A stretch of DNA of 27,841 bases, from IMG/VR virus record IMGVR_UViG_3300010391_000181, positions 1-27,841 of that record; one strand, written 5' to 3'. The number at the start of each line of letters is the position of its first letter. Position 1 is the first letter of the stretch. A program made the position numbers and the translations under genes. The notes below the pieces were generated by a model that made no database searches, was not told the origin of the DNA, and was given only the letters and a program-made list of their open reading frames with translations. Positions 5,741-25,071 of the stretch are shown in pieces. This DNA comes from a virus.

Positions 5741-7339
5741 GTGTTCAAGAAATGGCTTTGTCTCTCCCCGGACGACGGGGGGGGCGGAGGCGGCGGCGCG
5801 GGAGGCTCCGGCGAGAGGGGCGGAGGCGGCGGCGCGGGAGGCTCCGGCGAGAGGGCCGGCGACAAGCTTCGCGCGCGCGTGAAGGACTTCTCCGAGCCGG
5901 CGCAGGCTCTCGCGGCGATCACCGAATCGCTGGCCGAGGTCCTCGACGACGTCGGGGAGCGGAACAAGGCGATCCGGACGGAGGTCGCGACCGAGCTCTC
6001 CGGGCAGCGGGAGAAGATCGAGGCGGCGATGGTCCTGATGAAGGGGCGCGACGAGGAACTCCTCCGCTCCAAGATCAAGGGCCGGGTCCTCTCCTCGTTC
6101 GAGCCTCTCTCGGACAACGCGACGGTCGACGAACTCGGGAGGACGTACGAGGGGAGCGCGGACCTCACGGCGTTTCAGGAGTCGTGGGACGAGTTCCTCG
6201 TCGTCCGGCAGTTCGCGCGCGCGGCGCGATCGGTCAACCGCGCGGACGTCGTCTCGCCGAGCCGGCTCGCGAAGCTCGAAGAGGACGTCATGTCCGCGAA
6301 GCGGTCGTTCGTCGAGCGGTCCCGGGCTCTCGGGCTCCGGACCTCGATGGACACGCTCACGGCGGGCGAGGGCCTCGAATGGTCCCTGACCGGGTTCACG
6401 GCGAACCTCTGGACGAAGGTCCTCTTCGCCTCCCGGGTCGCTCCGCTCTTCGACTCGTTCACGATCCCGCAGCGGGTCGGTTCGTACGTCTGGCCGGTGC
6501 AGACCGAGGACCCGACTCCGTACCTCGCGGGACAGGCGACCGACTTCACGTGGATGCCGACGATGAACGCGAGTCTCGCGGGAACGGCGAACCGTACCTT
6601 CTCCTCGAAGGTCTTCGCGGTTCGCGTCCACCTCTCCCGCGAGTTCGAGGAGGACTCGGTCATTCCGGCGGCGTCGTGGATCACCGGTCGGATGGCGATC
6701 GCGCTCGCGCAGGGGAAGGACAAGGCGATCGTCTCGGGCGACTCCTCGACGACTCATCAGGACGCCGACGTTTGCGCGACGACCGGGACCGACGTCCGGT
6801 GCGCCTTCGACGGTATCCGGAAGATGATCCAGTCGGGCGCGAAGCTCAAGATCGTCACGGACTACCCGGTCCTCGACATCTGCGCCTTCGCTCGCCTCGG
6901 CGCGAAGATGGGCGTCTGGTCCTCGAACCCGGAGGAGAACGCCTACATCGCCTCGCCGAACGCGGGCTGGCAAATGATGGTCATGGACGGGGTCAAGACG
7001 ATTCAGGACTACGGAACGATGGCGACCGTCGTCGCGGGCGAGATCATGAAGCTCAACGCGCGACCGGTGATCATCTCCCCGTGGGTCCCGGATCAGAACG
7101 CTTCCGGCGTCGTCGACTCCTCGGCGGCGCTCAACACGAAGACGGCGATCCTCATGGTGAACCGTCGTCCGGCTCTCTTCGGCGAGAAGCGCGGGGTCAC
7201 GATGGACTCGTTCTTCAACCCGTTCACGCAGCAGCTCGGGATCGTCGCGACGATGCGCGGAGACTTCAAGTGTCTCCCCCTCTACTCGGCGGCCGGGAAC
7301 ACCTGCTTCGGGGAGATCTACAACCTGACGCTCTGGTAG
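5741..7339 (+). CDS. Major capsid protein, HK97 fold, with Gly-rich N-terminal extension
   Basis: At 532 residues this is the main shell protein. Residues 1-12 (MFKKWLCLSPDD) are followed by a Gly-rich stretch (13-38) containing two identical 12-residue units (GGGGGAGGSGER). A helical, probably coiled-coil segment (about 40-115, EPAQALAAITESLAEVLDDV) acts like the delta/scaffold domain that the upstream protease removes. The capsid core starts near residue 205 (TLTAGEGLEWSLTGFTANLW) and ends FKCLPLYSAAGNTCFGEIYNLTLW. It starts at GTG 5741 with GGAGGAAG 3-10 nt upstream. C-ending codons stay frequent even before A-starting codons, unlike its neighbours, consistent with high expression. The family is inferred from the order protease-capsid and the core motifs, not from a search. 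Confidence 0.88.
   Translation: MFKKWLCLSPDDGGGGGGGAGGSGERGGGGGAGGSGERAGDKLRARVKDFSEPAQALAAITESLAEVLDDVGERNKAIRTEVATELSGQREKIEAAMVLMKGRDEELLRSKIKGRVLSSFEPLSDNATVDELGRTYEGSADLTAFQESWDEFLVVRQFARAARSVNRADVVSPSRLAKLEEDVMSAKRSFVERSRALGLRTSMDTLTAGEGLEWSLTGFTANLWTKVLFASRVAPLFDSFTIPQRVGSYVWPVQTEDPTPYLAGQATDFTWMPTMNASLAGTANRTFSSKVFAVRVHLSREFEEDSVIPAASWITGRMAIALAQGKDKAIVSGDSSTTHQDADVCATTGTDVRCAFDGIRKMIQSGAKLKIVTDYPVLDICAFARLGAKMGVWSSNPEENAYIASPNAGWQMMVMDGVKTIQDYGTMATVVAGEIMKLNARPVIISPWVPDQNASGVVDSSAALNTKTAILMVNRRPALFGEKRGVTMDSFFNPFTQQLGIVATMRGDFKCLPLYSAAGNTCFGEIYNLTLW
5781..5852 (+). repeat. Perfect 36-bp tandem duplication in the capsid gene
   Basis: The 36-bp unit at 5781-5816 is repeated without mismatch at 5817-5852. 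It is in frame with the capsid gene and encodes GGGGGAGGSGER twice. The absence of synonymous differences between copies suggests a recent slippage duplication in a G-rich stretch. Confidence 0.95.
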
Positions 7340-8244: not shown

Positions 8245-9172
8245 CGTCACCCTGATCGCGCGCGGCGACCTCCTACCGGCGATCACGGCGACGCTCAAGG
8301 ATACGGCGGAGAACCCGATCGTCTTCGACATAACGGCTGGCGACACGGTCGAGTTCTACGCGGTCAACGCGCGGACGAACGCGCTCCTCGTCGACTGGAC
8401 TCCCGGGACGATCGTCTCGGCGGCGACGGGCTCGGTCAAGTATTCGTGGACGGCGGGCCAGACGGACGCTTCGCCGGGCTCCCTCTTCAACGCGCTCTTT
8501 CGGGTCGTCCGAGGAAGCGGCGCGAAGTGGACGCAACCCGAGCCCTTCCTGATCGGGATCTGGGCTCCGATCGTCTCCGAACCGTACTTCTTCGCGCCGG
8601 TCTCGGCGATCAAGGCGTTCCTCGATATCCGGGACAATACCCGGGACGACGTCGTCCGCGTGATCGGGGCGGCGGCGACGGCGAGCCTCGAAGGCGAACT
8701 CGGGTACCCGATCATCTCGCGGACGTTCCGGTACGACGGGACCGACTTCGACCGGCTCGACGGGTCCGGCTCGAACCGGATCAAGCTCCCGGTCCCGAAC
8801 GTCACGTCGCTGACCTCGATTGCGATCGAGGACGAGGAGACGATCAACGTCTCGGACCGCGAGGTCGTCCGGCTCAACCGCTCGACCGGCGAGGTCTATC
8901 TTATGAACCGGGTCTTCTCGTTCGGGTTCCAGAACGTCGAGACGGTCTTCGTCGCCGGCTGGAAGAACTCCTCGGACGCGACGCCGACGATCCCGAACGA
9001 CGTCGTCCTCGTCGGGCTCGAACTCTGCGGGCGCAAGTTTCAGGAGTGGCCGAGGAAGGGGCCGCAGACCGAGCGGCTCGTCGTCGGCGGAGAGATGATC
9101 GAGGTCCCTCCTCCGGACCTGACGGCGGAGCAGCGGCGAACCCTCTCGCGGTACCGGAGATACTCGTTCTGA
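8228..9172 (+). CDS. Head-tail connector with N-terminal BppU-like domain
   Basis: This 314-residue protein appears to be a fusion. Residues about 4-108 match the pattern of the BppU N-terminal Ig-like domain (LIARGDLLPAITATLKD, DTVEFYAVNARTNALLVDW, GSVKYSWTAGQTDASPGSLF, WTQPEPFLIGIW), normally found in baseplate or separate small phage proteins. Residues about 118-314 resemble gp6-like head-tail connectors: a helical start (PVSAIKAFLDIRDNTRDDVV, GAAATASLEGELGYPI), then beta segments and a C-terminal Arg/Tyr-rich tail. The connector ring binds the portal and receives the tail. ATG 8228 is preceded by GGAGCGGG. Order capsid-connector-tail completion fits the role. Both assignments rest on motif recognition. 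Confidence 0.7.
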   Translation: MPERNNVTLIARGDLLPAITATLKDTAENPIVFDITAGDTVEFYAVNARTNALLVDWTPGTIVSAATGSVKYSWTAGQTDASPGSLFNALFRVVRGSGAKWTQPEPFLIGIWAPIVSEPYFFAPVSAIKAFLDIRDNTRDDVVRVIGAAATASLEGELGYPIISRTFRYDGTDFDRLDGSGSNRIKLPVPNVTSLTSIAIEDEETINVSDREVVRLNRSTGEVYLMNRVFSFGFQNVETVFVAGWKNSSDATPTIPNDVVLVGLELCGRKFQEWPRKGPQTERLVVGGEMIEVPPPDLTAEQRRTLSRYRRYSF

Positions 9173-9789
9173 TGTTCGATATCGTCTTCACGCGCGCGCC
9201 GGCGCTCGTCGCCGGGAGAATCCGGAAGGCGGACGCGGTCCTCGATCGCGAAGAGCGGGAGGCGACCGTCGCTTCCGGGAACCACGTCCTCCGGGTCTGG
9301 CAGCATCGCCTCGTCGGGAGCGGCTCGGACGATACGCTCCACTCGCGGACGGGGAACACGCGGAGGCAGCTCCGGGTATCGCCTCCGAAGAAGGACGGGA
9401 TCTCGTGGTCTATCCGGGTCGGCGCGGCGGGCACCTCGGGGAAGATCCTCCGGGCCCACGAAGAGGGCGCGACGATCCGACCGAAGAACCGCAAGTTCCT
9501 GACGATCCCGCTCGGTCCGGCGAAGACGGGCGCGGGCGTCGCTCGCGGGCCGGCGCGCTCGTTCCCGGATACCTTCTTCCTCCGGTTTGGCGGGAAACTC
9601 TTTCTCATGAGGCAGAAGACGAAGGGGCGCGGGAAGGGTTCACTCGAAGCTCTCTTCGTCCTCGTTACGCGGGTCAAGCTCCCGAAGCGGAGGACGGCGT
9701 ACCGGACCTCGAAGGACGCGGCTCCGAAGATCCGGGAACTCTACGGGCGCGCGGTCGCGCTCGCCGTGAGGGCTGCGAATGGCGACTAA
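9172..9789 (+). CDS. Tail completion / neck protein (HK97 gp10 or DUF6441-like)
   Basis: A 205-residue basic protein starting at ATG 9172 in a TGATG overlap with the connector stop. The segment HEEGATIRPKNRKFLTIPLG (about 97-116) and the following AKTGAG are typical of phage neck proteins of the DUF6441/HK97 gp10 type, in which a helical N-terminus (about 15-50) precedes a beta domain. Such proteins join the head connector to the tail terminator. It overlaps the next gene by 11 nt. The exact family is uncertain, but the position between connector and tail terminator supports the role. Confidence 0.65.
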   Translation: MFDIVFTRAPALVAGRIRKADAVLDREEREATVASGNHVLRVWQHRLVGSGSDDTLHSRTGNTRRQLRVSPPKKDGISWSIRVGAAGTSGKILRAHEEGATIRPKNRKFLTIPLGPAKTGAGVARGPARSFPDTFFLRFGGKLFLMRQKTKGRGKGSLEALFVLVTRVKLPKRRTAYRTSKDAAPKIRELYGRAVALAVRAANGD

Positions 9790-10255
9790 GTCCGGCGCGG
9801 AGCTTATCGTCGAGGGGCTCGTCGAGGGGCTCCGGACGATCCGGCGCTCGTCCGGGTACGCGCACTCGCCGGAGGTTCGGCGCGGGCTCGTCGATTACTC
9901 GAACGTCTCGGCGAGCGACAAGGAGGAGATTTACGTCGAGGTCGCTCCCGGGGAACCCGAGACGCGCGAGGGCGACGCGGCTCCCTCGATGCGGTGCCAC
10001 CTCCCGGTCCTGATCGTCGCGGTCCTCCTCGACGAGAAGGACACGACGGAGCGGCTCAACGCCTTCATCAAGGATATCGTGCGCTGTATCTATGACCGCG
10101 AGTGGGCGAGTCCGAGCTGGGACGGCGGGCGCGGCTGCGTCGAGGACGTCGTCCTCGGGGATATCCGGCGCTGGGCGGCTCCCGGGACCTCGACGAAGGC
10201 GGCGACGATCATGGCCGAGGTCGTCTACCTCGACCCGAGAGATCAGGAGGCTTGA
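9779..10255 (+). CDS. Probable tail terminator protein
   Basis: A 158-residue protein at the place where siphoviruses encode the protein that caps the tail tube. It has an N-terminal helix (GAELIVEGLVEGLRTIRR), a central strand pair (CHLPVLIVAVLLDEKDTTERL), a helix (LNAFIKDIVRCIYD) and a terminal strand (TIMAEVVYLDPRD), an alpha/beta arrangement typical of lambda gpU/HK97 gp10-type terminators. ATG 9779 overlaps the upstream gene by 11 nt, with GAGGG upstream. Function is inferred from fold pattern and position. Confidence 0.6.
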   Translation: MATKSGAELIVEGLVEGLRTIRRSSGYAHSPEVRRGLVDYSNVSASDKEEIYVEVAPGEPETREGDAAPSMRCHLPVLIVAVLLDEKDTTERLNAFIKDIVRCIYDREWASPSWDGGRGCVEDVVLGDIRRWAAPGTSTKAATIMAEVVYLDPRDQEA

Positions 10256-10257
10256 CG

Positions 10258-10479
10258 ATGAAGACGAAGATGGTCGTATATCAGGGGAACCTCCCGGCGA
10301 CCTTCGTCCCGATGGCGCAGACGAAGGCGATCCGAGGCGTCCCGGTCGGGCTCCCCGACTGGCTCGCCGATCAGCTCGTCCGAGAGCAACCGAGGAAGTG
10401 GCGTTACGCGGAGGAGGCTCCTCCGCCGAAGGCGAAAGAGGAGAAGGCGGCGTCCTCGTCCGAGACGGGGAAGGAGTAG
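10258..10479 (+). CDS. Small phage protein with VPVGLPDWLADQLV motif, unknown
   Basis: A 73-residue protein starting at ATG 10258, two bases after the preceding stop and with AGGAGG just upstream. The middle (AIRGVPVGLPDWLADQLVRE, then QPRKWRYA) resembles the short proteins often found next to tail tube genes in siphoviruses, which carry an RGVPVELP-like stretch. The last 20 residues are a charged Lys/Glu/Ser tail. I cannot assign a biochemical role; position suggests tail or neck assembly. Confidence 0.72.
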   Translation: MKTKMVVYQGNLPATFVPMAQTKAIRGVPVGLPDWLADQLVREQPRKWRYAEEAPPPKAKEEKAASSSETGKE

Positions 10480-10482
10480 ACC

Positions 10483-11637
10483 ATGAGGTTCCGGACGACC
10501 TCGTCGGAAGCGGCGGTCGCGCTCGGCGAGGAGACGAGTTTCGGGCTCGGCAATACGACGCTGACCGAGTTCTTCCCGGCGTCGAAGTTCGAGTTCGAGC
10601 ACAACGTCAACTCGCGTACCCGTCCCGAGAGCGGGCTCGGGCTCAAGCTCCCGTTCTACTCGTCGAGGGACGCTCCGAAGTTCCACTGGAGTCTCTCGAC
10701 GAACCTCTGGGCCGAAGGGCTCGAAGCGCTGTTCAAGTACGGGATGGGACGGCACCAGCAGGACGAGACCCTCGCGTATACGAGTGGGAACGCCTTCGCG
10801 CATCTCTTCCTCGCGTCGAGCGGACCGATCCCGATGTACGGTCCGAACCCGGACAACCTCGCCGACGGGCTCGCGATCGGCGCGTACCTCGGCGACCTGA
10901 CGCCGGCGAAGGGCCGGTTCGTCAAGCTTCGCGGCTGTATGATCTCGAAGACGACGATCTCGATCAACTGCGCCGGGAACTCGGCGATGCTCAACGCCGA
11001 GGGGTTCTATCAGGACGCGTGCTTCGACTCGACTCCGCCGGCGGTCGCGTGGGACGCCGGGTATCTCTTCCACCCGAATGCGACGAACCTCTCGTTCGCC
11101 GACGCTTCGACCTCCGGGGCCGGGTGGGGGGCCGCGAACAAGCACTGGGACCCGTACTCGATCACCCTGACGATGGACAATAAGCTCGATCAGGAAGTCG
11201 GCGGCGGGCACGTTCTCGGAGGGCCGTTCTTCCGGACTCCGGAGGCTCCGCACCGGAGCGACGCGATCGACTGGCGGGTCGCCTTCGACGTCAAGGCGGG
11301 CGACTTCGACTCGACGATGACCTCCGGGGCCGCCGTCGCCGGCGGGACGACGTGGCGGCAGATGCTCGAAAACGAGAAGCACTTCCACGGATACTTCGAG
11401 ATGTTCGGCGAGCAGATCCTCAACCTGACCGACGGCTCCGGGTATCCGAAGGAGAGGTCGTTCCGGTTCCAGTGGGACTTCGCGACGCTCGTCTCGTGGA
11501 AGACGAACCTCGTCGGACCGGGCGTCTTCAAGCACTCCTGCGAAGCCGTCCTCCACGAACCTCCGGGCACGTGGTACGGCGACCTCGCGAATCTCTACCT
11601 GACGAACGGTCGCGGGTTCTCCTTCGGCGTTCGTTAG
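10483..11637 (+). CDS. Major tail tube protein
   Basis: A 384-residue protein located between the terminator and the tail chaperones, where the tail tube gene lies in siphoviruses. It begins MRFRTTSSEAAVALGEETSFG, a pattern seen in tube proteins that form stacked rings, and is rich in beta segments (KFEFEHNVNSRTRPESG, RFVKLRGCMISKTTISINC, DPYSITLTMDNKLDQ, IDWRVAFDVKAGDF). It is larger than small tube proteins (150-250 residues), leaving room for an extra surface domain. ATG 10483 has AAGGAG 6 nt upstream. Call based on order, size and sequence character. Confidence 0.75.
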   Translation: MRFRTTSSEAAVALGEETSFGLGNTTLTEFFPASKFEFEHNVNSRTRPESGLGLKLPFYSSRDAPKFHWSLSTNLWAEGLEALFKYGMGRHQQDETLAYTSGNAFAHLFLASSGPIPMYGPNPDNLADGLAIGAYLGDLTPAKGRFVKLRGCMISKTTISINCAGNSAMLNAEGFYQDACFDSTPPAVAWDAGYLFHPNATNLSFADASTSGAGWGAANKHWDPYSITLTMDNKLDQEVGGGHVLGGPFFRTPEAPHRSDAIDWRVAFDVKAGDFDSTMTSGAAVAGGTTWRQMLENEKHFHGYFEMFGEQILNLTDGSGYPKERSFRFQWDFATLVSWKTNLVGPGVFKHSCEAVLHEPPGTWYGDLANLYLTNGRGFSFGVR

Positions 11638-12512: not shown

Positions 12513-14432
12513 ATGGCCGATCCGAACGCTATCGAGATCGCGATCAACGCGCGGAACCGCGCGAGCGATCAGCTGAAGCAATTCGCGCGCGACGCCGAGG
12601 AGGTCGATCGGGTTACGACGCGGGTCTTCCTCGGGATGGCGGCGGGCGCTCTCGCGGCGGAGACGGCGGTCGTCGGGATGAGCATCCGGGTCGCGATGGC
12701 CGGCGACCGGCTCGCCGATATGGGCGACCGGGTCGGGATGGCCGGGTCCTCCCTCTCCCGGTACGAGTTCGCGCTCAAGCGGTCCGGGGCGACGCTCGAC
12801 GGGTCCATCCCCGGGCTCAAGATGCTCTCCTCCCTCTCCTCGGACGCGGCGGCGGGGAGCGATACCGCACGCGCGACCCTCGACCGGTGGGGCGTCTCGA
12901 TCTTCGACGCCTCCGGGAAGATCAAGTCAATGAACGACCTGATCCTCGACGCCTCCGAAGCCGTCCACCAGCAGGTCGGGGAAGCGAACCAGCTCGCGGC
13001 GGCGACCGACCTCTTCGGTCGCGCGGCTCTCGAATCCGCCGGCTTCATCAAGCGGGGCCGGGTCGAGATCGAGGCGCTCCTCGCGCGAAGTGACGAACTC
13101 GGGAACACGATGTCCGATACGCTCGTCGCGGCGGGAGACGACTTCGATCGGTCAATGACCGAGGTCAAGGGCGCGCTGCAAGGCGTCGCGAATACGATCG
13201 CGGAGCCGGTTATCCCGGCACTGACCCGGTACATCGACAAGGTCTCGGACGCGATCGCGAAGAACAAGGAGTGGCGGGACTCGCATCCCGAGGGGGCGGC
13301 ATTCCTCGGAGGGGCGGGGCAGGGCGCGCTGATCGGCGGCGGGATCGTCGGGGCGGCGGGCCTCGCGGCTCGATACGGCGGGGCGATCGCGGGCACGGCG
13401 GAGACGGCGGCGATCATGGCGCTCGTCATCAACCCGGCGGTCTGGGCCGGCGCGGCACTCGCGGCGCTCGGCGGGATCGCCATCGGACTCAAGAGCGCGG
13501 CGGAGGAGCACGCCGAGGCTGCGGCGAAGCGGGCCGGCGACGACTTCGACTGGTCGAAGGTTCCGGGCGGGTACCTCGGCGCGATCAAGCGGGCGACGCT
13601 CCCGGAGGTCGTCACGTACGGGAACCGTCCCGGACAAGCGATCGAGCCTCCGCCGGCGGTCGCGTACGCTCAGGGTACCTTCGGATACGATATGAGCGAG
13701 GCGCGCGCGGCGGGCGAAGCGGCGGATCGTTGGGTACGCGACGCGGCGGAGTTCTTCGGCAACCCGAAGAACAACTGGAAGATGGCTCCTCCCTCCCCGG
13801 TCTCGGACGCCGAGATGGGCTACGGACCGTCCTCCTCGTACGACGTGACCGAACCGTCGAAGTCGGCGGGCGTCCAGCAAGCGTGGGCGGAGACCGTCGA
13901 GCGAAACTCGCGCGATATCGAGGCGGCGACCCGGCGCGAACTCGACGGGCGTTATATGGTCGCGAACGCGGCGGCGAACCTCGCGACCGGGATGTGGGCG
14001 GCGGCGACTGGCGCGCGAGACTTCGGGCAGGTCGCGCGGGACGTCATGCAACAGCTCGCGATTCAGATCATTCAGGGGTCGATTATGAAGGCGTTCGGCT
14101 TCGCCTCGGGAGGCGTTATCCCGATGACCGTCGGGACTCCCGGACGAGACTCCGTCCCGATCCTCGCGATGCCGGGCGAGCGAGTCCTCTCCGTCGAGGA
14201 GAACCGGCGCTTCGAGTCGGGGATGGCCTCGTCCTCCCGAGGCGGCGGCGAGCGCGGAGGAGGCGGGCAGGTCGTCAACCTCAACGGGACGGTGCAGGTC
14301 GTCGTCCCGGCGTCGCCGATGCTCGGGCAGATGGACGGGCTCCGCGCAGGGTATTCGATCGAGCGGTCGCTCGCGAACTTGAACCGGAACGTCTTCGTCC
14401 TCGGCGTGAACGATAAGGACTTCCACGTATGA
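12513..14432 (+). CDS. Tape measure protein
   Basis: At 639 residues this protein sets tail length and may help DNA cross the membrane. It starts with a helical region typical of tape measures (IEIAINARNRASDQLKQFA, then AMAGDRLADMGDRVGMAGSS, about 60-85). A hydrophobic Gly/Ala-rich stretch follows at about 264-335 (GAAFLGGAGQGALIGGG, INPAVWAGAALAALGGIAIG). Near the end come FGFASGGVIP and ILAMPGERVLSVEEN, signatures of tape measure C-termini. At about 0.15 nm per residue the tail would be short to medium, near 95 nm. ATG 12513 abuts the chaperone stop. Confidence 0.9.
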   Translation: MADPNAIEIAINARNRASDQLKQFARDAEEVDRVTTRVFLGMAAGALAAETAVVGMSIRVAMAGDRLADMGDRVGMAGSSLSRYEFALKRSGATLDGSIPGLKMLSSLSSDAAAGSDTARATLDRWGVSIFDASGKIKSMNDLILDASEAVHQQVGEANQLAAATDLFGRAALESAGFIKRGRVEIEALLARSDELGNTMSDTLVAAGDDFDRSMTEVKGALQGVANTIAEPVIPALTRYIDKVSDAIAKNKEWRDSHPEGAAFLGGAGQGALIGGGIVGAAGLAARYGGAIAGTAETAAIMALVINPAVWAGAALAALGGIAIGLKSAAEEHAEAAAKRAGDDFDWSKVPGGYLGAIKRATLPEVVTYGNRPGQAIEPPPAVAYAQGTFGYDMSEARAAGEAADRWVRDAAEFFGNPKNNWKMAPPSPVSDAEMGYGPSSSYDVTEPSKSAGVQQAWAETVERNSRDIEAATRRELDGRYMVANAAANLATGMWAAATGARDFGQVARDVMQQLAIQIIQGSIMKAFGFASGGVIPMTVGTPGRDSVPILAMPGERVLSVEENRRFESGMASSSRGGGERGGGGQVVNLNGTVQVVVPASPMLGQMDGLRAGYSIERSLANLNRNVFVLGVNDKDFHV

Positions 14433-15535
14433 GTATTCTCGACCCGTTCTCGCGCGGTCTCCTTACGCTCGCGAGCGATCCGGTAAACTTCGCCTCGTTC
14501 GCGAAGTTCACGTTCCCTCGCGCGCCGAGAGTCTCGCTCCTTCCGGATACTCCCGGGACGGCGCTCGTCCAGCTCTCGGACCGGAGCTATCGGTCCGACG
14601 ACGTCGGCTCGGATCTCCGGAACCTCGACCTCGCGATCGGCGGCGGCGAGTTCCTAGAACCGGCGGACCTCGAAAAGTGGCGGCTCTTCCGGGCGACGAA
14701 GCAGTTCTTCTCGTTCTTCCCAAACTATGACGCCTCGACCCTCGCGCTGAACCACTTCGAGGGCAACCTCGTCCGGGAGATCGGACCCTCGGGCTCGGAC
14801 CCGACCGTCCTCGGGACGTCTTCGTATTCCTGCGGCGCGCTCGGCGGGGCGCTATACCTCGGGACCGGGTCGCGGCTCGGGTACAACGTGACGCCACCGT
14901 CGACCGGCTCGCTCAACTTCTGGCTTAGGTTCCCGAGCGACGGCTCGTGGTATTCGCTCAACGGCGTATATCTCGGCGGCGTCAACGTCTTCCTCGGCTG
15001 GAATCACTACTCCGGGCCTCCCGGGAAGCTACGCTTCCGACCGGCGAACAACAATGACATCGACGCGACGCCGGGACAACTCCCGACCTTCGCTCCCGGC
15101 GAGTGGTTCAACGTCGGGCTATCGTGGAAGAGCGGGACGGGGCGGCACGCGAGAATGGTTATCAACGGCTCGACCTCGACGTACCACTTCGAGCGAGACC
15201 TCGATCAGGACCCGACCTTCAATAACTCGCTGGTCCTCGGTTACGCTCCGATCGGCGGGACGGAATACTATCAGGGGCCGCTCGACGAGGTCCGGCTCAC
15301 GTCCGCGTACTGGGACGCGACCGAGCACGGAGCCTGTTACGACCGGTTCGCCGAGGTCACGGCGAAGACGCTCGCGTCGCAAACGCAGGGCTGTTACTTC
15401 CACGTCGTCTCGGACGATATCGGGTTCATCTCGAAGCCTCAGACCGACCGGCTCGTCGGGCGGCTCCGGTTCCAGTCGGCGTACGTCGACTCGCGGTTCC
15501 TCGTCTCTCAAGCCTCCGCGAGCTATCCGTCGTGA
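14429..15535 (+). CDS. Distal-tail-like protein with LamG/concanavalin-like insertion
   Basis: This 368-residue protein follows the tape measure with an ATGA overlap, the usual place of the distal tail protein (Dit) that forms the hub of the tail tip. Residues 1-100 and about 320-368 look like the Dit-like frame. Between them (about 105-315) lies a LamG-like jelly roll: ALNHFEGNL, LGGALYLGTGSRLGY, SLNFWLRFPSDGSW, FAPGEWFNVGLSWKSG, ARMVINGST, and GPLDEVRLTSAYW, the classic end of such domains. The insertion suggests glycan binding at the tail tip, as in evolved Dit proteins with carbohydrate-binding modules. Ligand unknown. Confidence 0.75.
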   Translation: MSILDPFSRGLLTLASDPVNFASFAKFTFPRAPRVSLLPDTPGTALVQLSDRSYRSDDVGSDLRNLDLAIGGGEFLEPADLEKWRLFRATKQFFSFFPNYDASTLALNHFEGNLVREIGPSGSDPTVLGTSSYSCGALGGALYLGTGSRLGYNVTPPSTGSLNFWLRFPSDGSWYSLNGVYLGGVNVFLGWNHYSGPPGKLRFRPANNNDIDATPGQLPTFAPGEWFNVGLSWKSGTGRHARMVINGSTSTYHFERDLDQDPTFNNSLVLGYAPIGGTEYYQGPLDEVRLTSAYWDATEHGACYDRFAEVTAKTLASQTQGCYFHVVSDDIGFISKPQTDRLVGRLRFQSAYVDSRFLVSQASASYPS

Positions 15536-16884: not shown

Positions 16885-17505
16885 ATGTCCGTCGAAGGCG
16901 CTACCGGGGCTCCGATCTCTCCTCCGTACGCGATGACCGCGCACGCGGCGTCGCACCAGCCGGGGGGCTCGGACGCGATGGCCGTCGACGCGGCGGCGGC
17001 GACCGGCTCCCTCCGGACGCTCGGGGTCTCGGCGACCTCGGCGGCGGCGGGGAACGCGGCGTGGCCGGTCGGGTCGATCTTCCTCTCGGTCGTCTCGACG
17101 AGTCCGGCGACGCTCCTCGGGTACGGGACGTGGTCAGCGATCGGGGCCGGGCGCGTCCTCGTCGGGCTCGACTCCGGGGACGCCGACTTCGACGTCGTCG
17201 AGGAGACCGGCGGAGCGAAGACCGTCGCGGCGGCTGGATCGAACGCGGCGGAGGCAGCGCATACGCATAGCGTCACGGCGCAGGGTACGGTCGCGGCGAT
17301 CGCGTCGTTCTCGGAGGCGGCAACGACGAAGGGTGCGGGTCTCTCGAACGCGGCTCCGTCTCCGCATACGCATCCGGCTCCGGTATTTACCGGGAGCCCG
17401 GTCGCGAGCGGGGCGGGGAGTTCGCACAATCATACCTTCACCGGGAGCGCGACTAGTGTCGTGCAACCCTATCTCGTATGCTACATGTGGAAGCGGACGG
17501 CGTGA
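16885..17505 (+). CDS. Tail fibre tip with metal-binding His motifs (T4 gp10-like C-terminal domain)
   Basis: A 206-residue protein with an N-terminal low-complexity Ala-rich region (HAASHQPGGSDAMAVDAAAA) and a C-terminal collar/fibre domain (about 60-206): WPVGSIFLSVVSTSPATLLG, GTWSAIGAGRVLVGLDSGD, ETGGAKT, then three HxH motifs (126-128 HTH, 161-163 HTH, 181-183 HNH) and the ending QPYLVCYMWKRTA. In related phage fibres such His pairs bind metal ions along a trimeric needle. It is the last tail gene before the lysis genes, so it is a good candidate receptor-contact protein. ATG 16885 has GAGGAG upstream. Confidence 0.88.
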   Translation: MSVEGATGAPISPPYAMTAHAASHQPGGSDAMAVDAAAATGSLRTLGVSATSAAAGNAAWPVGSIFLSVVSTSPATLLGYGTWSAIGAGRVLVGLDSGDADFDVVEETGGAKTVAAAGSNAAEAAHTHSVTAQGTVAAIASFSEAATTKGAGLSNAAPSPHTHPAPVFTGSPVASGAGSSHNHTFTGSATSVVQPYLVCYMWKRTA

Positions 17506-18439: not shown

Positions 18440-19852
18440 ATGAACGAGGACGTGGCGGCAGGGACGCAGGAGACGCCGGCAGAACCGAAGGAAGATACCG
18501 GGCTCCCGGCGGCGGTCGCCGTCGAGGAGGACGGCGAGAAGAAGACGCTCGGGGAGGCGCTCCGGGAGCTCTCCGCCGAGTCGCTCGCCGTGATCGTCTC
18601 CCGGATGCCGAAGCTCCCCGGAGACGGGGAGATCCTCGCGGCGTACGAGGCGCGGATGAAGTCCCGAGACCGGGCGAAGCTCGCGCTCGTTATGATCGTC
18701 CGGGACGCCGACAAGGAGCTCCTCGGGGTCGACGCTCACGGGAACCTCTCGGTCGGGATGCTCTCTCGGGTCGCCGGCGAGGTCTGGGATACCGTCGTCG
18801 TCGATACCGGCTCGAAGGATAAGACGCCTTCGCTCGCGACGGAGCTCGGGGCGCGAGTCTACTCGTACTCGTGGAATCAGGACTTCGCGGCGGCACGGAA
18901 CTTCGCGATCTCGAAGGTCAGGCCGGGCGCGCGATTCATCCTCCACCTCGACGCGGACGAGGTCCTCTCCCGGGAGTTCGTCGCGCGGCTCAACGCGATG
19001 CTCGAAGACGCTCCAGACAATCGCTGTTACGCGGTTCCCCTTGAGATCCAGAACACGGACGGGCCGCTCGAGGGCGGGATCACGATGCAGGTCCGGGTCT
19101 TCCCGGTCATGTGGGGCGAGGACGGGCTCCCTCGGGTTCGCTTCGAGGGCGCGATCCACGAGCAGATCCGCTACTCCCTCGAAGAGCTCGGCTGCGAGGA
19201 GGAGATCGCCTCGAATATCCGGATCGTCCATACCGGGTACGCGGACCCGGACCGGACGAAGCTCAAGTGCGTTCGGAACCGCGAGATCCTCGAACGGGAG
19301 CTCGACAACCCGTGTCGCCGGCGTCCGAAGTACGAGATCCTCTGGCACCTCTCGAAGTGCGAGGCGGCGCTCGGGCATACCCGGAAGGCGCTCGACCTCG
19401 TGATCGCCGTCGCCATGGACCCGGACGCGCGCTCGAAGTCGAAGTGGCTCGGGAAGTCGGCGTTCCGCTGGTGGGGCGAGCTCCTCTCCCGGGAGGGGTC
19501 TCCGCTCCTCGCGATCCGAGTCTGGGAGGAAGCCGAGGGGCTCTACCCGGACGACCCGATGTTCCCGGCGCTGATCGGGTTCCACCTGAAGGCGCTCGGC
19601 GCTCGGGACGAGGCGATCGCGAAGCTCCTCGGCGCTGCGGGCCGGGACTATCCGGTCTCGGCGCTCGACGTCCCGGTACAGGAGATCCGGGCGCGGATCG
19701 CGAACGACCTCGTCCAGCTCCTACGCGAGAAGGCGTACGGGACGAAGGGCCTCTCCCGGGCGGAGAAGATCAAGCTCCTGACCGAGGCCAATAAGTGGGA
19801 GACCGAGCGTGACACGGCGTTCTCCTCGACGACCGTGGTTCGTCCGGGATGA
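18440..19852 (+). CDS. GT2 glycosyltransferase with C-terminal helical (TPR-like) region
   Basis: At 470 residues this protein has an acidic N-terminus (1-75), a GT2 domain (about 80-265) and a helical tail (about 270-440). GT2 landmarks are LALVMIVRDADKELLG (81-96), VVVDTGSKDKTPSLA (119-133), DFAAARNFAI (148-157), FILHLDADEVL (166-176, DXD) and FEGAIHEQIRY (235-245). The set DTGSxDxT, DFAxxRN and DADE is that of SunS-like and TPR-linked GT2 enzymes that often glycosylate proteins. Repeated Trp/Leu helices in the tail (CEAALGHTRKALDLVIAVAM, GARDEAIAKLLGAAG) suggest TPRs for acceptor binding. GGGAGG precedes ATG 18440. It lies between lysozyme and holin candidates. Confidence 0.87.
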   Translation: MNEDVAAGTQETPAEPKEDTGLPAAVAVEEDGEKKTLGEALRELSAESLAVIVSRMPKLPGDGEILAAYEARMKSRDRAKLALVMIVRDADKELLGVDAHGNLSVGMLSRVAGEVWDTVVVDTGSKDKTPSLATELGARVYSYSWNQDFAAARNFAISKVRPGARFILHLDADEVLSREFVARLNAMLEDAPDNRCYAVPLEIQNTDGPLEGGITMQVRVFPVMWGEDGLPRVRFEGAIHEQIRYSLEELGCEEEIASNIRIVHTGYADPDRTKLKCVRNREILERELDNPCRRRPKYEILWHLSKCEAALGHTRKALDLVIAVAMDPDARSKSKWLGKSAFRWWGELLSREGSPLLAIRVWEEAEGLYPDDPMFPALIGFHLKALGARDEAIAKLLGAAGRDYPVSALDVPVQEIRARIANDLVQLLREKAYGTKGLSRAEKIKLLTEANKWETERDTAFSSTTVVRPG

Positions 19853-20130: not shown

Positions 20131-20438
20131 AGCGGGTCCTCGAAGCGATCGGGGCCGGGGTGGCCGGCGTCGTCGGCTCCCCGGTCCTTGTCCGGACCGT
20201 CCGGTTCCTCGCCGGGCGGGTCCGCGAGGCGACCTCTCGAACCTTCCTCCTCGCCGGGGGCGGGACCGCTGCCGTCCTCTGGCTGGCAGCGCACGGGGCC
20301 GGTGGCTGGAGTTTCGCGGCGGTCGCCGGGATCTCCGTCGCAGCGCTCCTCTCCGGCGCGTGGGAGGCGAGATCCTCGGAAGCGATCCGGGCGGAGGTCT
20401 TCCGGGTCCTCCGGGACGAGGTCTCGAAAGAAGCTTGA
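20127..20438 (+). CDS. Two-TM membrane protein, holin or antiholin candidate
   Basis: A 103-residue protein starting at GTG 20127 in a GTGA overlap with the preceding membrane gene. A moderately hydrophobic N-terminus (VLEAIGAGVAGVVGSP) is followed by two clear membrane helices (about 40-56, FLLAGGGTAAVLWLAA; 61-77, WSFAAVAGISVAALLSG) and a charged C-terminal helix (EAIRAEVFRVLRDEVSKE). Pairing with another small membrane protein after an endolysin suggests a holin/antiholin pair. No family recognised. Confidence 0.65.
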   Translation: MKRVLEAIGAGVAGVVGSPVLVRTVRFLAGRVREATSRTFLLAGGGTAAVLWLAAHGAGGWSFAAVAGISVAALLSGAWEARSSEAIRAEVFRVLRDEVSKEA

Positions 20439-20464
20439 CGTCGCCGGGTCCTCCCGGATAACCT
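20435..20464 (+). promoter_or_regulatory. Candidate sigma70-like promoter P1
   Basis: TTGACG (20435-20440), an 18-nt spacer and TAACCT (20459-20464) lie in the only gap of about 50 nt between the lysis genes and the glycosyltransferase at 20489. Its architecture matches the other two promoter-like sites. The -35 overlaps the preceding stop codon and the -10 is imperfect. Confidence 0.45.
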
Positions 20465-20488
20465 CTCCGATCGAAGGAGGACGTGGCA

Positions 20489-21316
20489 ATGCACTCCGTC
20501 GTGATCGTGACCCGGAACTCGGCTGCCGATATCCGGGCCTGTATCCTCTCCGTCGCGCGCGCTCTACCGGACTATGCCGGCGAGATCGTCGTCGTCGACA
20601 ACGCTTCCGAGGACGCGACGCTCGACGCGGCGCTCCTCGCGGCGGAGGAGATCCCGCGCGACCTCCGGAACGTCAAGATCCGATCTCTCGAAGCGAACCT
20701 CGGGTACGCGGCGGCGGCGAACCTCGGCGCGGCGGAAGCGTCCGACGAGGTCCTCTTCTTCCTCAACCCGGATACCGTCCTCCCTCCCGAGGGCCTCTCG
20801 CGCCTCGCGGCTCATCTCCTCCCGGGCGTCGCCGGCGTCGGGCCGGTCTCGAACTATTCCTCGGGGCCCCAGAAGTACGCCGGCTGGATGCCTCCGAACG
20901 ACCCGCGCGCACGGACGCGGGAGTTCCTCGCGACCGACTCCCTCCTCCGCGAAGCGAACGCCGGTCGCGCCTTCGACGCGAAGGTCCTGATCGGCTTCGC
21001 GCTCGCGATCCATCGGGCCGCGTGGGAGGCTCTCGGGCCGTTCGACGAGGGCTACATCCTCGGGCTCGAAGACCTCGAATGGTCGCTCCGCGCGCGGCGC
21101 GCCGGGTGGCGGCTCTCCGTCGCGACCGACGTACTCGTCTATCACAAGGGGCAGGCAAGCTTCGCGAGCCTCCCGGGCTCGAAGCGTTACGAACTCGAAC
21201 GGCGGAGCCGGAATCATCTCCGCGCGAAGCTCCGCGAGTGGTACGGGCCGGTCCCTCCGCTCGCGAAGGAACTCTGGAACCTCGGCTGGTTCGATACCCG
21301 GAGGGACGACGAATGA
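20489..21316 (+). CDS. GT2 glycosyltransferase (rhamnosyltransferase-like)
   Basis: A compact 275-residue GT2 enzyme beginning directly with the first strand: MHSVVIVTRNSAADI, then EIVVVDNASEDATL (32-45), NLGYAAAANLGA (70-81), LFFLNPDTVLPP (89-100, NPDT as the metal site) and YILGLEDLEWSLRARRAG (189-206) with VYHKGQASF after it. The motif set is that of rhamnosyl- and related GT2 enzymes of polysaccharide synthesis. The ATG has GGAGGA 7 nt upstream within a 16-nt initiation region identical to that at 11653. It is the first gene after promoter P1. Donor and acceptor unknown. Confidence 0.9.
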   Translation: MHSVVIVTRNSAADIRACILSVARALPDYAGEIVVVDNASEDATLDAALLAAEEIPRDLRNVKIRSLEANLGYAAAANLGAAEASDEVLFFLNPDTVLPPEGLSRLAAHLLPGVAGVGPVSNYSSGPQKYAGWMPPNDPRARTREFLATDSLLREANAGRAFDAKVLIGFALAIHRAAWEALGPFDEGYILGLEDLEWSLRARRAGWRLSVATDVLVYHKGQASFASLPGSKRYELERRSRNHLRAKLREWYGPVPPLAKELWNLGWFDTRRDDE

Positions 21317-21393
21317 AGGTCAAGCTCGCGGGAGGACGTCACGACGGGGTCGTCGTCGAGTGGCCTCGTGCCGATATCCGTCGAATGAAGTGA
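21313..21393 (+). CDS. 26-residue microprotein, possibly a truncated gene start
   Basis: ATG 21313 overlaps the glycosyltransferase stop (ATGA) and encodes MKVKLAGGRHDGVVVEWP plus eight residues, ending at TGA 21391-21393. Phages often encode small proteins beginning MKVRLVGGPxDGxVVEVP that are two to three times longer. This one could be a shortened version. The next ORF continues in the same frame after the TGA. Confidence 0.5.
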   Translation: MKVKLAGGRHDGVVVEWPRADIRRMK

Positions 21394-21399
21394 CCGGAG

Positions 21400-21591
21400 A
21401 TGGACGCGGACGGGCTCTGGGCCCTGACCTTCGAGATCCGCGACCGGGACGAGGACGGGCTCCCCGTCGCCGAACTCGTCGAGCGGGAGAAGATCAACGC
21501 GGGACCTCCGCCGGCGTCCGAGGAGTTCCCGGTCGGGAGGCTCTTCGAGGTCCGGTTCTGTCCGTTCTGCGGCGGTAGGCTTCACCAATGA
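21400..21591 (+). CDS. Small protein with a C-terminal CPFCGG zinc-knuckle-like motif
   Basis: A 63-residue protein, acidic in the first half (FEIRDRDEDGLPVAELVERE) and ending RFCPFCGGRLHQ with C54, C57 and H62. One CxxC pair suggests a half zinc site, perhaps completed by dimerisation. Its ribosome site is poor (GGAG touching the ATG). It is in frame with the preceding 26-residue ORF, only one TGA apart, so it may be the second half of a disrupted or read-through gene. It overlaps the methyltransferase by 4 nt. Confidence 0.6.
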   Translation: MDADGLWALTFEIRDRDEDGLPVAELVEREKINAGPPPASEEFPVGRLFEVRFCPFCGGRLHQ

Positions 21592-22340
21592 TCGACGACC
21601 TCGACCTCCCTCCTCCGGCGATGCGCGACTGGATCGGCTCGCGGTCGAACGCCGACTTCCTCGCGTGGGGCGGATACTTCTGGCGGAAGCTCCGGATCGC
21701 CTTCGGGCTCCGTCCCGAGAGCCGGGTCCTCGAAGTCGGATGCGGTCCCGGGAGCCTCGCGCGCTGGATCGCGCCGGACCTCCGGTCGCCGGGGTCGTAC
21801 GTCGGCTTCGATATCAACCCGGAGGCGATCGCGGTCTGCGCGACGACGATCTCCGCGCGGTTCCCTCTCGCGCGGTTCGAGTTCGCGAACCTCCGGAACG
21901 TGTACGCGAGAGACAATACGGGAAGCGCGGCGGAGTATCGGTTCCCGGCGGAGGACGGCTCGATCGACGTCGTCGCCGGGATCTCTCTCTGGACGCATCT
22001 CCTCGCGAACGACGCGCGAGCCTATCTCCGCGAGGTCGCGCGCGTCCTCGCTCCGGAGGGCAAGGCGCTTATCACGCTCCTCCTCGGTCCGGATACGGTC
22101 CTCCCTCCGTCCTCGATACCGGGGCCGGACGGGCTCGTCCTCCCGAGGCTCCCGAGCGGGGAGTACGCTCACTCGGAGTGGCTCGTCGCGTACCCGTTCG
22201 AGACCTTCTCGGACCTCGCGCTCGACGCCGGACTCGAAGCGGAGATCGAGGAGCGCGGAGACTGGCGTCGCGTCGTCGCCGACGGAGAGAACCCGGACTC
22301 GTGGACGCAGGATATCATCCGAATCAGGAGGGCGTCGTGA
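21588..22340 (+). CDS. Class I SAM-dependent methyltransferase
   Basis: A 250-residue Rossmann-fold methyltransferase. Motif I is VLEVGCGPGSLARWI (about 47-61); the acidic residue binding the SAM ribose follows in YVGFDINPEAI (71-81). Later motifs are SIDVVAGISLWTHLL and REVARVLAPEGKALITLLLG. The arrangement matches Methyltransf_11/25-type small-molecule or sugar methyltransferases rather than DNA methylases, as no DPPY or PCQ motif is present. Starts at ATG 21588 in an ATGA overlap. Lying within the sugar-gene block, it may O-methylate a sugar, as in capped polysaccharides. That target is inference. Confidence 0.88.
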   Translation: MIDDLDLPPPAMRDWIGSRSNADFLAWGGYFWRKLRIAFGLRPESRVLEVGCGPGSLARWIAPDLRSPGSYVGFDINPEAIAVCATTISARFPLARFEFANLRNVYARDNTGSAAEYRFPAEDGSIDVVAGISLWTHLLANDARAYLREVARVLAPEGKALITLLLGPDTVLPPSSIPGPDGLVLPRLPSGEYAHSEWLVAYPFETFSDLALDAGLEAEIEERGDWRRVVADGENPDSWTQDIIRIRRAS

Positions 22341-22933
22341 AGAAGACTATCGTCGTCGCGAGGTACGCGGAGCCGCTCGACTGGCTCGCGCGGGTCCCGG
22401 AGGACTGGCAGATCGAGATCGTGAATAAGGGCGAGATCCTCGCGCCGTTCCCGCTCGAGGCGCTCTCGGCGCGTACTTACTGGACGATGGCCGAGAACGT
22501 CGGGCGCGAGGGAGGGACGTTCCTCCGCGCGATCGAGCGTGCGCGCGCCGAGGGCGGCGACCCGGACGATCTCTTCGCCTTCCTGCAAGGGAAGCCGGAG
22601 GACCACGTCCCGGAGGCTCCGGAGCTCCTCGCGATCGAGCCGAACGGCGACTTCCGGGAGCTCGGGCGTACCTTCCTCTGCGACGCGAAGGGGATGCCGC
22701 ACCATTGGGAGCCGCTCCCGCTCGCCGAGTCGTTCGAGTTCGTATTCGAGCGCAAGGCTCCCGAGCGGTTCCGGTTTATCGTCGGGGCGCAGTTCCTCGC
22801 GCGTCGCTCGCTCCTCGCAGTGATCTCCGAGGCGGAACTCCGGCGCGCGACGATGCTAACCGAGGAGACGCCGGCGGGTCCGTGGGTTATGGAACGTCTC
22901 TGGATGTACCTCCTCCGCTGCGACGAACGCTAA
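22337..22933 (+). CDS. DUF3431-like protein (glycosyltransferase-associated)
   Basis: A 198-residue protein starting at GTG 22337 (GTGA overlap). The sequence follows the DUF3431 pattern: TIVVARYAEPLDWL (about 4-17), IEIVNKGEIL, ENVGREGGTFLRAIERA (about 51-67) and DLFAFLQGKPEDHVPE. DUF3431 proteins occur in bacteria and fungi near sugar-transfer genes and are thought to have a glycosyltransferase-like fold, but the activity is not established. The surrounding glycosyltransferase and methyltransferase support a carbohydrate role. I recognise the family from motifs only. Confidence 0.78.
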   Translation: MKKTIVVARYAEPLDWLARVPEDWQIEIVNKGEILAPFPLEALSARTYWTMAENVGREGGTFLRAIERARAEGGDPDDLFAFLQGKPEDHVPEAPELLAIEPNGDFRELGRTFLCDAKGMPHHWEPLPLAESFEFVFERKAPERFRFIVGAQFLARRSLLAVISEAELRRATMLTEETPAGPWVMERLWMYLLRCDER

Positions 22934-22950
22934 ACCGAAAGGAGTTCGAG

Positions 22951-23256
22951 ATGAGCCTCCCGAAGACCGTCCCGATTGACAACCGAGTCCTGATCCGGAT
23001 GGACGCCGAGCCGAAGTACGAGGGCCGGCTCGTGATCCCCGACACCGCGAAGCGTAAGGTCGACCTCGGGACGGTCGTCGCCGTCGGTCCGGGCTCGCCT
23101 CGGCGCGACGGGCCGGGCCGCTGCGAGATGCAGGTCCTCGTCGGGAACCGGGTCCTCGTCGGGAAGTACGCGGGACAGGAGGTCGAGATCAATGGCGAGT
23201 CGCTCTCCGTCCTTCTGGAAACCGATATCCTTCTCGTCTTCCCGGACGAGGCTTAG
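22951..23256 (+). CDS. groES: GroES-like co-chaperonin
   Basis: A 101-residue Hsp10. The beta barrel is evident from PIDNRVLIRMDAE (about 8-20), DLGTVVAVGPGSPRRDG and VGNRVLVGKYAGQEVEINGE (about 66-85), followed by LLETDILLVF. The mobile loop that contacts GroEL is present as YEGRLVIPDTAKRK (about 23-36), with LVI in the place of the Ile-Val-Leu tripeptide of bacterial GroES. AAAGGAG sits 6 nt before ATG 22951, the best ribosome site in this block. No GroEL gene is in the window, so it would work with the host GroEL, as T4 gp31 does for its capsid protein. Confidence 0.92.
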   Translation: MSLPKTVPIDNRVLIRMDAEPKYEGRLVIPDTAKRKVDLGTVVAVGPGSPRRDGPGRCEMQVLVGNRVLVGKYAGQEVEINGESLSVLLETDILLVFPDEA

Positions 23257-23259
23257 TCG

Positions 23260-23799
23260 GTGGCGTATCCGGCGCGGCGGGAGAAGTTCGAGACGCCGGC
23301 GAACCTCCGGGCGGAGACCGAGATCGTCTCCGAGATCCGGAAGGCGTCGGGGCTCTTCTTCGTCAAGCTCCCTCCGATGTACCACGTCGAGGGAGTCCTA
23401 CTCCAGACGGCGGCGTCTCGCGGCGAGGCTCCCCGGGACCCGGTCGCGATCCTCGAACTCGGCGGTCCCGGCGACGTCGTTACGGTCGACGCGGTCGTCG
23501 AGGTCAAGGAGCGGCATATCCTCCCTCGGGACTTATCCTCCGTGATCCTCTCAGTCGAGAAGGTGATCCGAGGGACCGAGCTCGCCGGGTTCCTCCGGGT
23601 CCCGTTCTTCTTCGCGGTACGCTTCGCCGATCGCGCGATCCGGGTCGCCGAGATCCAGTACGGTCCTCGCTGGACGACCGGGATCGGAGGCCGGCGCGTC
23701 GACCGGGACGGATACGACCGGGAGATCGTCGTCCACGTCCCGATGGGCGAGTTCCTCCCGCTCGACGAGTGGGCCGCGCCAGAATCCTCTCTCCCCTGA
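23260..23799 (+). CDS. PD-(D/E)XK nuclease-like protein
   Basis: A 179-residue protein beginning at GTG 23260, three bases after the groES stop. The core pattern fits the PD-(D/E)XK fold: a helix with an acidic residue (ANLRAETEIVSEIRKAS, about 14-30), then VVTVDAVVEVKER with D77, E81 and K83, and a later helix and strand (SVEKVIRGTELAGFLRVPFF, about 98-117) followed by FAVRFADRAIRV. Many phages encode such a nuclease near replication or host-takeover genes. The first acidic residue is tentative and the ribosome site is weak. An inactive structural relative is possible. Confidence 0.6.
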   Translation: MAYPARREKFETPANLRAETEIVSEIRKASGLFFVKLPPMYHVEGVLLQTAASRGEAPRDPVAILELGGPGDVVTVDAVVEVKERHILPRDLSSVILSVEKVIRGTELAGFLRVPFFFAVRFADRAIRVAEIQYGPRWTTGIGGRRVDRDGYDREIVVHVPMGEFLPLDEWAAPESSLP

Positions 23800-23812
23800 A
23801 CCGGAGGCTCCG

Positions 23813-25033
23813 ATGCAACGTCTCGACGGCGAGAAGCCGGCGAAGTTCGTCCCGGGCTCAATCGCGATCATCGTCCCGACCTGCCGACCCGAGCGGCTCG
23901 AACGCTGGTGGAACTTGTGGACGCCGGACTTCTTCGAGGGCGACCGTCCGGGCGCGCCGAACGACGTCACGGTGTACGTGATCCTCGACGCTCCGGAGCG
24001 CGAGTCGCTCTCGGTCGGGGCGTACTTCCGGGACCCGGATCTCGAAGGGCGCGCGCCGGCGTCGACGATGCGCTCCGAGGTCTATTCGTGGGCGGAGATC
24101 GACGCGGCGCTCGGCGCGGACTCGTGGATTATCCCGAGGCGCTCGGACGCGATCCGGTCGTTCGGATTCCTCAAGGCGTACCGGAACGGAGCGGAGTTCA
24201 TCCTCTCGCTCGACGACGACTGCCTTCCGGACCCGAAGAGTCTCGGGTCGTGGGTCGACGCTCATCTCGCGGCGCTCCGGAGCAAAGTCGAGGAGGCGGC
24301 GTGGGCCTCGACGATCAAGCCTCTCCGTCCTCGCGGGTTCCCGTACGGCGCGACGACTCGGTCTCTCCCGGTCGCGATCAATCACGGCGGGTGGAACGGA
24401 GTCCTCGACCTCGACGCTCCGACCCGGCTCGCGCTCTCGCGCGATCCGGCGCGCGCGTGCTCGGCGGAGTTCGGCCTCGGCGCGATCCGGCGCGGGGAGT
24501 ACGCTCCGCTCTGCGGGATGAACCTCGCCTTCCGCGCGGAGTTTGCTCCGGCGATGTACCAGCTCCTTATGGGCGCTCACGCTCGCGAGGCGTTCGCGCT
24601 CGGCGGAGATCCCGATGCGGACCTCGCGAGGATGGAGCGTCCGAGGTACCCGTTCGATCGGTTCGCCGATATCTGGTCGGGCGTCCTCGCGAAGAAGATC
24701 GCGGACCATCTCGGCTTCGCGGTCACGACCGGCGGACCGTTCGTCGTCCACGAAGGCGCGAGCGATCCGCTCGTCAATCTCGGGAAGGAAGCGGCGGGGA
24801 TACGCGCGAACGAGACCTTCTGGCGCGCGGTCGACGCGGTTCCGCTCGGAGGCGAGACCGTCGCCGAGTGTTACCTCGAAGTCGCGAACTGGCTCGGCGA
24901 AGGCTTCGGCGTCGAGGAGTTCGCTCCCGGGTACGCGACGACGCTCCGCGAGGCGATGCGCGCGTGGGTTCGCGTCCTCGGCGACCGGAAGGCTCCAGAC
25001 CCGGTCCCGTCAGTCGTTATGCCGCAAGGCTAA
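23813..25033 (+). CDS. GT75/RGP-like protein (UDP-arabinopyranose mutase family)
   Basis: This 406-residue protein follows the pattern of reversibly glycosylated polypeptides, the plant UDP-L-arabinopyranose mutases. Visible landmarks are SIAIIVPTCRPERLERWW (16-33), FILSLDDDCLP (129-139, the DDD metal site), RGFPYGATTR (174-183, the Arg region self-glycosylated in plant enzymes), INHGGWNGVLDLDAPT (189-204), PLCGMNLAF (232-240), FADIWSGVLAKKIADHLG (284-301), and SDPLVNLGKEAAGI (317-330). Length is close to plant members. GGAGG lies 6 nt before ATG 23813. It is the last gene of the sugar block, before promoter P2. Whether it makes UDP-arabinofuranose, or transfers sugar, is unproven. Confidence 0.85.
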   Translation: MQRLDGEKPAKFVPGSIAIIVPTCRPERLERWWNLWTPDFFEGDRPGAPNDVTVYVILDAPERESLSVGAYFRDPDLEGRAPASTMRSEVYSWAEIDAALGADSWIIPRRSDAIRSFGFLKAYRNGAEFILSLDDDCLPDPKSLGSWVDAHLAALRSKVEEAAWASTIKPLRPRGFPYGATTRSLPVAINHGGWNGVLDLDAPTRLALSRDPARACSAEFGLGAIRRGEYAPLCGMNLAFRAEFAPAMYQLLMGAHAREAFALGGDPDADLARMERPRYPFDRFADIWSGVLAKKIADHLGFAVTTGGPFVVHEGASDPLVNLGKEAAGIRANETFWRAVDAVPLGGETVAECYLEVANWLGEGFGVEEFAPGYATTLREAMRAWVRVLGDRKAPDPVPSVVMPQG

Positions 25034-25042
25034 AATAAAAGG

Positions 25043-25071
25043 TTGACAAGGTTATCCTCCTCGGATATGCT
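25043..25071 (+). promoter_or_regulatory. Strong sigma70-like promoter P2
   Basis: TTGACA (25043-25048), a 17-nt spacer and TATGCT (25066-25071) follow an A-rich stretch (TAAAATAAAA, 25031-25040) that could act as an UP element. It is located right after the GT75-like gene and before the small-gene operon. Expected transcription start is near 25078. Confidence 0.75.

Follow-up and report, generated by a model that had tools for sequence, protein, structure and literature searches.

The DNA examined is a linear record of an uncultured virus, 27,841 bp long with 68% GC (IMG/VR record IMGVR_UViG_3300010391_000181), the whole of which is called the window, and the subject of this report is a block of genes at 20483–25033 ending in a member of the RGP/GT75 family. 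The + strand of the window carries the late module of a tailed phage, consisting of terminase, portal, capsid, head-tail adaptor, tape measure, a Gp10_C-type baseplate protein and a GH108 endolysin. The first gene of the block lies 44 nt beyond the lysis genes in the same orientation, and every gap between 17520 and 25033 is 44 nt or less; we take the block to form the end of a single late run, following the lysis genes. The features referred to below were as follows.

1691–2677, + strand: GT2c, a soluble family-2 glycosyltransferase (GT2) between the terminase large subunit and portal genes (start ATG 1691; PF00535, E 9.8e-16, match obtained on 1688–2677)
18440–19852, + strand: GT2b, a GmaR-like glycosyltransferase, after the endolysin (PF00535, E 2.9e-11)
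20483–21316, + strand: GT2a, a soluble family-2 glycosyltransferase (PF00535, E 9.7e-21; start GTG 20483 or ATG 20489, with GGAGG ahead)
21313–21393, + strand: open reading frame (ORF) of 26 aa overlapping GT2a by 4 nt, translation uncertain
21400–21591, + strand: protein of 63 aa with one CxxC (FCPFCGG) and a weak zinc-ribbon resemblance (PF09297, E 0.17)
21588–22340, + strand: class I S-adenosylmethionine (SAM) methyltransferase (PF13649, E 2.9e-14)
22337–22933, + strand: divergent DUF3431 relative, candidate transferase (homology via relatives; predicted GT-A-like fold)
22951–23256, + strand: GroES co-chaperonin (PF00166, E 9.2e-20)
23260–23799, + strand: PDDEXK_14-type phage protein (PF24579, E 3.6e-13)
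23813–25033, + strand: RGP/GT75 protein (PF03214, E 3.7e-33, 115.6 bits against a curated cut-off of 23.8)
25043–25071, + strand: promoter-like TTGACA-17-TATGCT, 10/12 matches, 9 nt beyond the RGP stop

The genes of the block are tightly coupled, the successive gaps being −4, 6, −4, −4, 17, 3 and 13 nt, and third-position GC is 0.86–0.88 across the block genes for which it was listed (the 26 aa ORF is not among them). A preliminary description, made from the letters of this DNA, had proposed a coupled run of genes here. It was borne out on the + strand, with the two tiny ORFs in place and with Pfam profiles for GT2, methyltransferase, GroES, PDDEXK_14 and RGP/GT75. The pathway extends past the block, two further GT2 genes at 1691–2677 and 18440–19852 having been missed.

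The protein at 23813–25033 had been called a GT75-like enzyme; PF03214 upheld the family, while the role of transferase gave way to that of a nucleotide-sugar mutase. Its matches among PDB sequences were GT75 proteins, namely MtdL and the plant UDP-arabinopyranose mutases (UAM), the latter represented by rice UAM2. An AlphaFold model (pLDDT 83) matched MtdL with Z 34.5 and an rmsd of 2.6 over 313 aligned residues, a full-length GT75 fold, and Oryza sativa UAM2 with Z 32.0; the next unrelated fold among the matches listed gave Z 16.0. Residues D134, D136, R174, D199, R283, D286 and H313 align with D109, D111, R159, D195, R257, D260 and H287 of MtdL. All seven were identical across the 26 phage RGPs compared, and D135 of the DDD motif was nearly so. 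In MtdL, according to PMC9937993, the metal site is formed by D109/D111 and H287, R159 is the likely nucleophile, D195 and D260 act in the reaction and R257 binds. As both the fold and the residues match those of MtdL, the name GT75 misleads, and supply of a furanose donor is likelier than sugar transfer: on alignment and model, the identification of this protein as most likely a metal-dependent nucleoside diphosphate (NDP)-pyranose mutase is well supported. It resembles MtdL and the plant enzymes in profile, full-length fold, DDD motif and catalytic Arg, Asp and His, and differs from them in being phage-borne and part of a late run. For MtdL, the positions that select the nucleotide are given as T13, N42 and S86 (PMC9937993); the window protein carries P22 and P61 at the first and second of these and matches neither set throughout, so no choice between UDP and GDP can be made for it.

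The protein at 22337–22933 matched no Pfam family at E≤1. An iterated search among the RGP loci recovered six relatives, and six of the seven members of the alignment that contains them (A2) matched PF11913; it is therefore a divergent DUF3431 relative and not a Pfam member, and the DUF3431 label of the preliminary description stands through the phage relatives, not for the protein itself. No match was obtained on searching the window record with PF11913, where the controls were silent too, or on searching viral contigs and phages with the protein as a single query, and the family profile reached at best E 0.1 against PDB sequences. A model built from a 24-row alignment had a pLDDT of 93.6. 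Its best VIA matches were GT-A domains (LH3, heparosan synthase and GlcAT), with Z up to 11.0 over 160–164 residues, and the top rows among the matches listed were mostly GT-A enzymes; Foldseek gave low TM-scores (0.34–0.49) and ranked nucleotidyltransferases first. A predicted 'GT-A-like' fold over the whole chain is the strength of claim that these comparisons bear. The canonical DXD motif was not found in the protein, and in its place is a conserved FLQGxPFxH, which reads FLQGKPEDH in the window.

GT2b matched GmaR, the Listeria flagellin N-acetylglucosamine (GlcNAc) transferase and anti-repressor (PDB 22ao), with E 5.9e-16 over residues 109–290, which places the shared part in the GT2 domain. 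GmaR moves GlcNAc onto flagellin via its N-terminal domain and has 637 residues, as against 470 in GT2b (PMC9638930). Matches of GT2b to NCBIfam were weak and far below cut-offs. The best resemblance of GT2a and GT2c to curated families was to glycosyltransferases acting on polysaccharide or small molecules, again far below cut-offs in every case. No membrane segment was detected in the three GT2 proteins, the methyltransferase, the DUF3431 relative or RGP (19-residue window, hydropathy ≥1.6), whereas the O-antigen conversion systems of gtr type work with membrane-anchored GtrA/GtrB/Gtr proteins.

The distribution of RGP in other viruses was assessed from named phages and uncultured viral contigs. 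GT75 is rare in the former, with one match by tblastn in 50,697 records, and a profile scan returned 73 relatives from the latter; these 74 loci form 63 clusters at 80% identity. Searches described here as covering 50 records were made on the window and 49 others, with 14 of the 63 cluster representatives, mostly short contigs, omitted, and alignments A3 and A4 were built from proteins of up to 750 aa. The two genes upstream of RGP (96 proteins) included 10 TET-associated glycosyltransferases (TAGT), 9 GT2, 5 GT1, 4 epimerases, 4 Methyltransf_24 and 2 DUF3431 proteins, and the two genes downstream (108 proteins) included 8 Methyltransf_24, 7 GT2, 6 epimerases and several terminase families. 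A terminase-like ORF was present in the fetched RGP flank of 31 of the 63 clusters, and the identity of these families as terminases was confirmed for the group as a whole. Thirty records had a usable GT2 match, and in 20 of them a GT2 gene stood no more than 3 kb from RGP, against a null expectation of 8.3; none of 10,000 shuffles reached 20. For this test, 10 PF00535 matches overlapping RGP were dropped by hand, removing 4 of 34 records. In 12 of 25 records a phrog_2 terminase stood at most 5 kb from RGP (null 6.2, P 0.005); the 25 lack the window itself, as its terminase was matched by neither the A5 nor the phrog_2 search. The records are not phylogenetically independent, which makes the P values of the linkage tests optimistic.

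The order of methyltransferase, DUF3431 and RGP, with GT-like genes, was found again in an unrelated phage, L027, in which an FkbM methyltransferase (8827–9432), a DUF3431 protein (9429–10007) and RGP (10004–10918) are joined by 4-nt overlaps and are followed by an unassigned ORF and then by two that are weakly GT-like. In a further record, L028, the order is TerL, GT2, RGP, methyltransferase, an unassigned ORF, an Anp1-like ORF and a portal candidate. A scattered distribution of these genes had been set beforehand as the outcome that would speak against the preliminary description; linkage was found, both in the proximity of RGP to GT2 and in the order of L027, and the two together support the reading of the genes as a glycan pathway. 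DUF3431 occurred in 7 of 75 RGP loci, the window included. It also occurs apart from RGP, since 38 of 42 loci recovered with the A6 query had no RGP within the fetched flanks, four circular ones having been excluded: the query was built from RGP-adjacent loci, and hits on those same contigs are circular (L021, L051, L075, which is the contig of L027, and L107, which is the contig of L059). A GT2-like ORF was present in 8 of 40 DUF3431 loci.

Bacterial RGP is rare, with 26 loci (L115–L140), of which 16 are by title of Patescibacteria type (CPR) and the rest belong to Planctomycetota, Chloroflexi and others; DUF3431 was found in none of the 26. Two viral islands were also inspected by eye. In a 595-kb uncultured phage (L004, 6450–11133), RGP stands beside a methyltransferase-like and two sulfotransferase-like ORFs, and at 5228–12873 of L010 it is accompanied by ORFs resembling radical SAM/B12, methyltransferase and sugar-nucleotide enzymes, with a portal candidate downstream.

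Taken at slightly better than even odds, the genes encode a soluble cytosolic pathway of glycan assembly, expressed late, which coats a virion protein with a methylated, furanose-containing glycan. RGP would interconvert NDP-pyranose and NDP-furanose by means of its conserved arginine nucleophile and a divalent metal and thus provide the furanose donor. The first sugar would be placed by the GmaR-like GT2b on a protein acceptor, most probably a component of the virion (capsid or tail, for instance). The DUF3431 relative with its predicted GT-A-like fold may lengthen the chain with that donor, together with GT2a and GT2c. The methyltransferase, for which we infer O-methylation of sugar, would cap or tune the glycan, and the finished product would change the surface of the particle or shield it. 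GroES and the PDDEXK_14 gene lie inside the run and are assigned no step. The preliminary description had offered virion, host surface and DNA as targets; among these a virion protein is favoured, unproven as it is, because of the GmaR match, the late-gene position and the lack of membrane segments, and the other two remain rivals. The main hint that the acceptor is a protein comes from the sequence match to GmaR.

Several points weigh against this interpretation, besides the optimism of the P values. None of acceptor, sugar and product has been observed. The match to GmaR covers the glycosyltransferase domain only, and a TPR part is hinted at in GT2b by a weak TPR_14 match at 341–373 (E 0.7). 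Related GT2 enzymes can also act on polysaccharide. No gene making the pyranose donor was recognised in the window, and the donor would therefore have to be supplied by the host. The proximity of RGP to terminase was not significant at 3 kb (7 of 25 records, null 3.8, P 0.06), and in the window itself RGP is ∼22 kb away from the terminase. As regards conservation, single queries with the terminase, the PDDEXK protein and GT2b found no close relatives of the phage among viral contigs; the terminase likewise had no near relative among named phage records.

A different target would be the phage DNA, with a furanose-containing glycan placed on modified bases to protect it from restriction. TAGT, which takes its name from DNA-modifying systems, was present in 11 of 50 RGP records (L012, L034, L043, L045, L049, L053, L056, L057, L060, L066 and L070), which speaks for DNA and against a virion acceptor, as do the ten TAGT proteins in the upstream neighbourhood and the frequent position of RGP near terminase, a DNA-handling protein. 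Phage RB69 makes arabinosyl-hydroxymethylcytosine (arabinosyl-hmC; PMC6024577), so that phage glycosyltransferases are common to the window, to RB69 and to TAGT/TET hypermodification, and some RGP-bearing phages carry TAGT. The window, a fragment, differs from both systems: it has no TAGT match at E≤0.001, no gene for oxidising or modifying bases was recognised in it, and its GT2b is similar to an enzyme that glycosylates protein. None of the 50 records yielded Tet_JBP, in a search of which the control was also silent; TAGT may work without TET in these phages. We regard modification of DNA as an unlikely account of the window.

Remodelling of the host surface, in which a cell-wall or capsule glycan is built or altered such that receptors are masked or superinfection is blocked, appears equally improbable. 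The resemblance of GT2a and GT2c to enzymes of polysaccharide or small molecules, distant as it is, points in this direction; a surface role is plausible in the 26 bacterial RGP loci, and GT75 and GT2 of soil phages have been tied to cell membrane components (PMC12016548). The glycosyltransferases of the window, however, are without membrane segments, and the families identified in the block included no flippase or polyprenyl-phosphate enzyme. The genes also stand amid virion and lysis genes, and late expression, if they form one unit, would make masking of little use. Least probable is a loose cargo region of separately acquired and functionally unrelated neighbours, for although the block also contains GroES and a PDDEXK-like gene and most RGP islands differ in gene set, the enrichment of GT2 near RGP, the recurrence of DUF3431 in RGP loci and the repeated order in L027 stand against it.

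The promoter that had been proposed at the head of the block, TTGACG-16-GATAAC at 20435, has 9/12 matches and fails a strict scan. Sites of that grade number six in the window and one to eight in ten shuffles, and the candidate was rejected as being at chance level. The site at 25043–25071 is better and possibly marks the start of a next unit; sites of its grade were present in 4 of 10 whole-window shuffles. Three further proteins of the window were noted. The major capsid protein (5741–7339) has a glycine-rich repeat stretch near its N-terminus, at approximately residues 13–41, with two GGSGER units. A tail-region protein (14429–15535) contains a Laminin_G_3 (concanavalin-like lectin) domain (E 8.3e-08) and is a possible sugar-binding adhesin, and the baseplate protein of Gp10_C type lies at 16885–17505 (E 3.8e-23).

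Virion glycosylation by phage glycosyltransferases and methyltransferases is already known. Mycobacteriophages with an O-methyltransferase and tandem glycosyltransferases glycosylate capsid and tail tube (PMC11600133 and PMC12363180), and Che8, Corndog and Myrna are examples (Freeman et al. 2023, as cited in PMC11600133, PMC12363180 and PMC12619734). The window has phage glycosyltransferases and a methyltransferase in common with these systems, and its genes stand among those for structure and lysis. Unlike the mycobacteriophages, it adds a predicted nucleotide-sugar mutase and a GT-A-like DUF3431 protein. No literature on phage GT75 as a mutase or in a virion role was found in a search outside which most subscription journals lay.

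We suggest tentatively, and at somewhat less than even odds, that GT75 mutases mark widespread and unrecognised phage glycan islands (at least 63 clusters besides the window) which give virions furanose-bearing, often methylated glycans, and that DUF3431 is a new GT-A-like transferase family in some of them. If so, papers on soil viromes in which phage GT75 is listed as an 'auxiliary metabolic gene' of carbon or membrane metabolism have misread a virion-coat pathway, and that vague label would be replaced by a testable enzyme with named residues. DUF3431 would acquire a probable role along with its predicted fold. A furanose donor made by the phage would add a new layer to virion glycosylation, and the change in the phage surface would be detectable directly by mass spectrometry.

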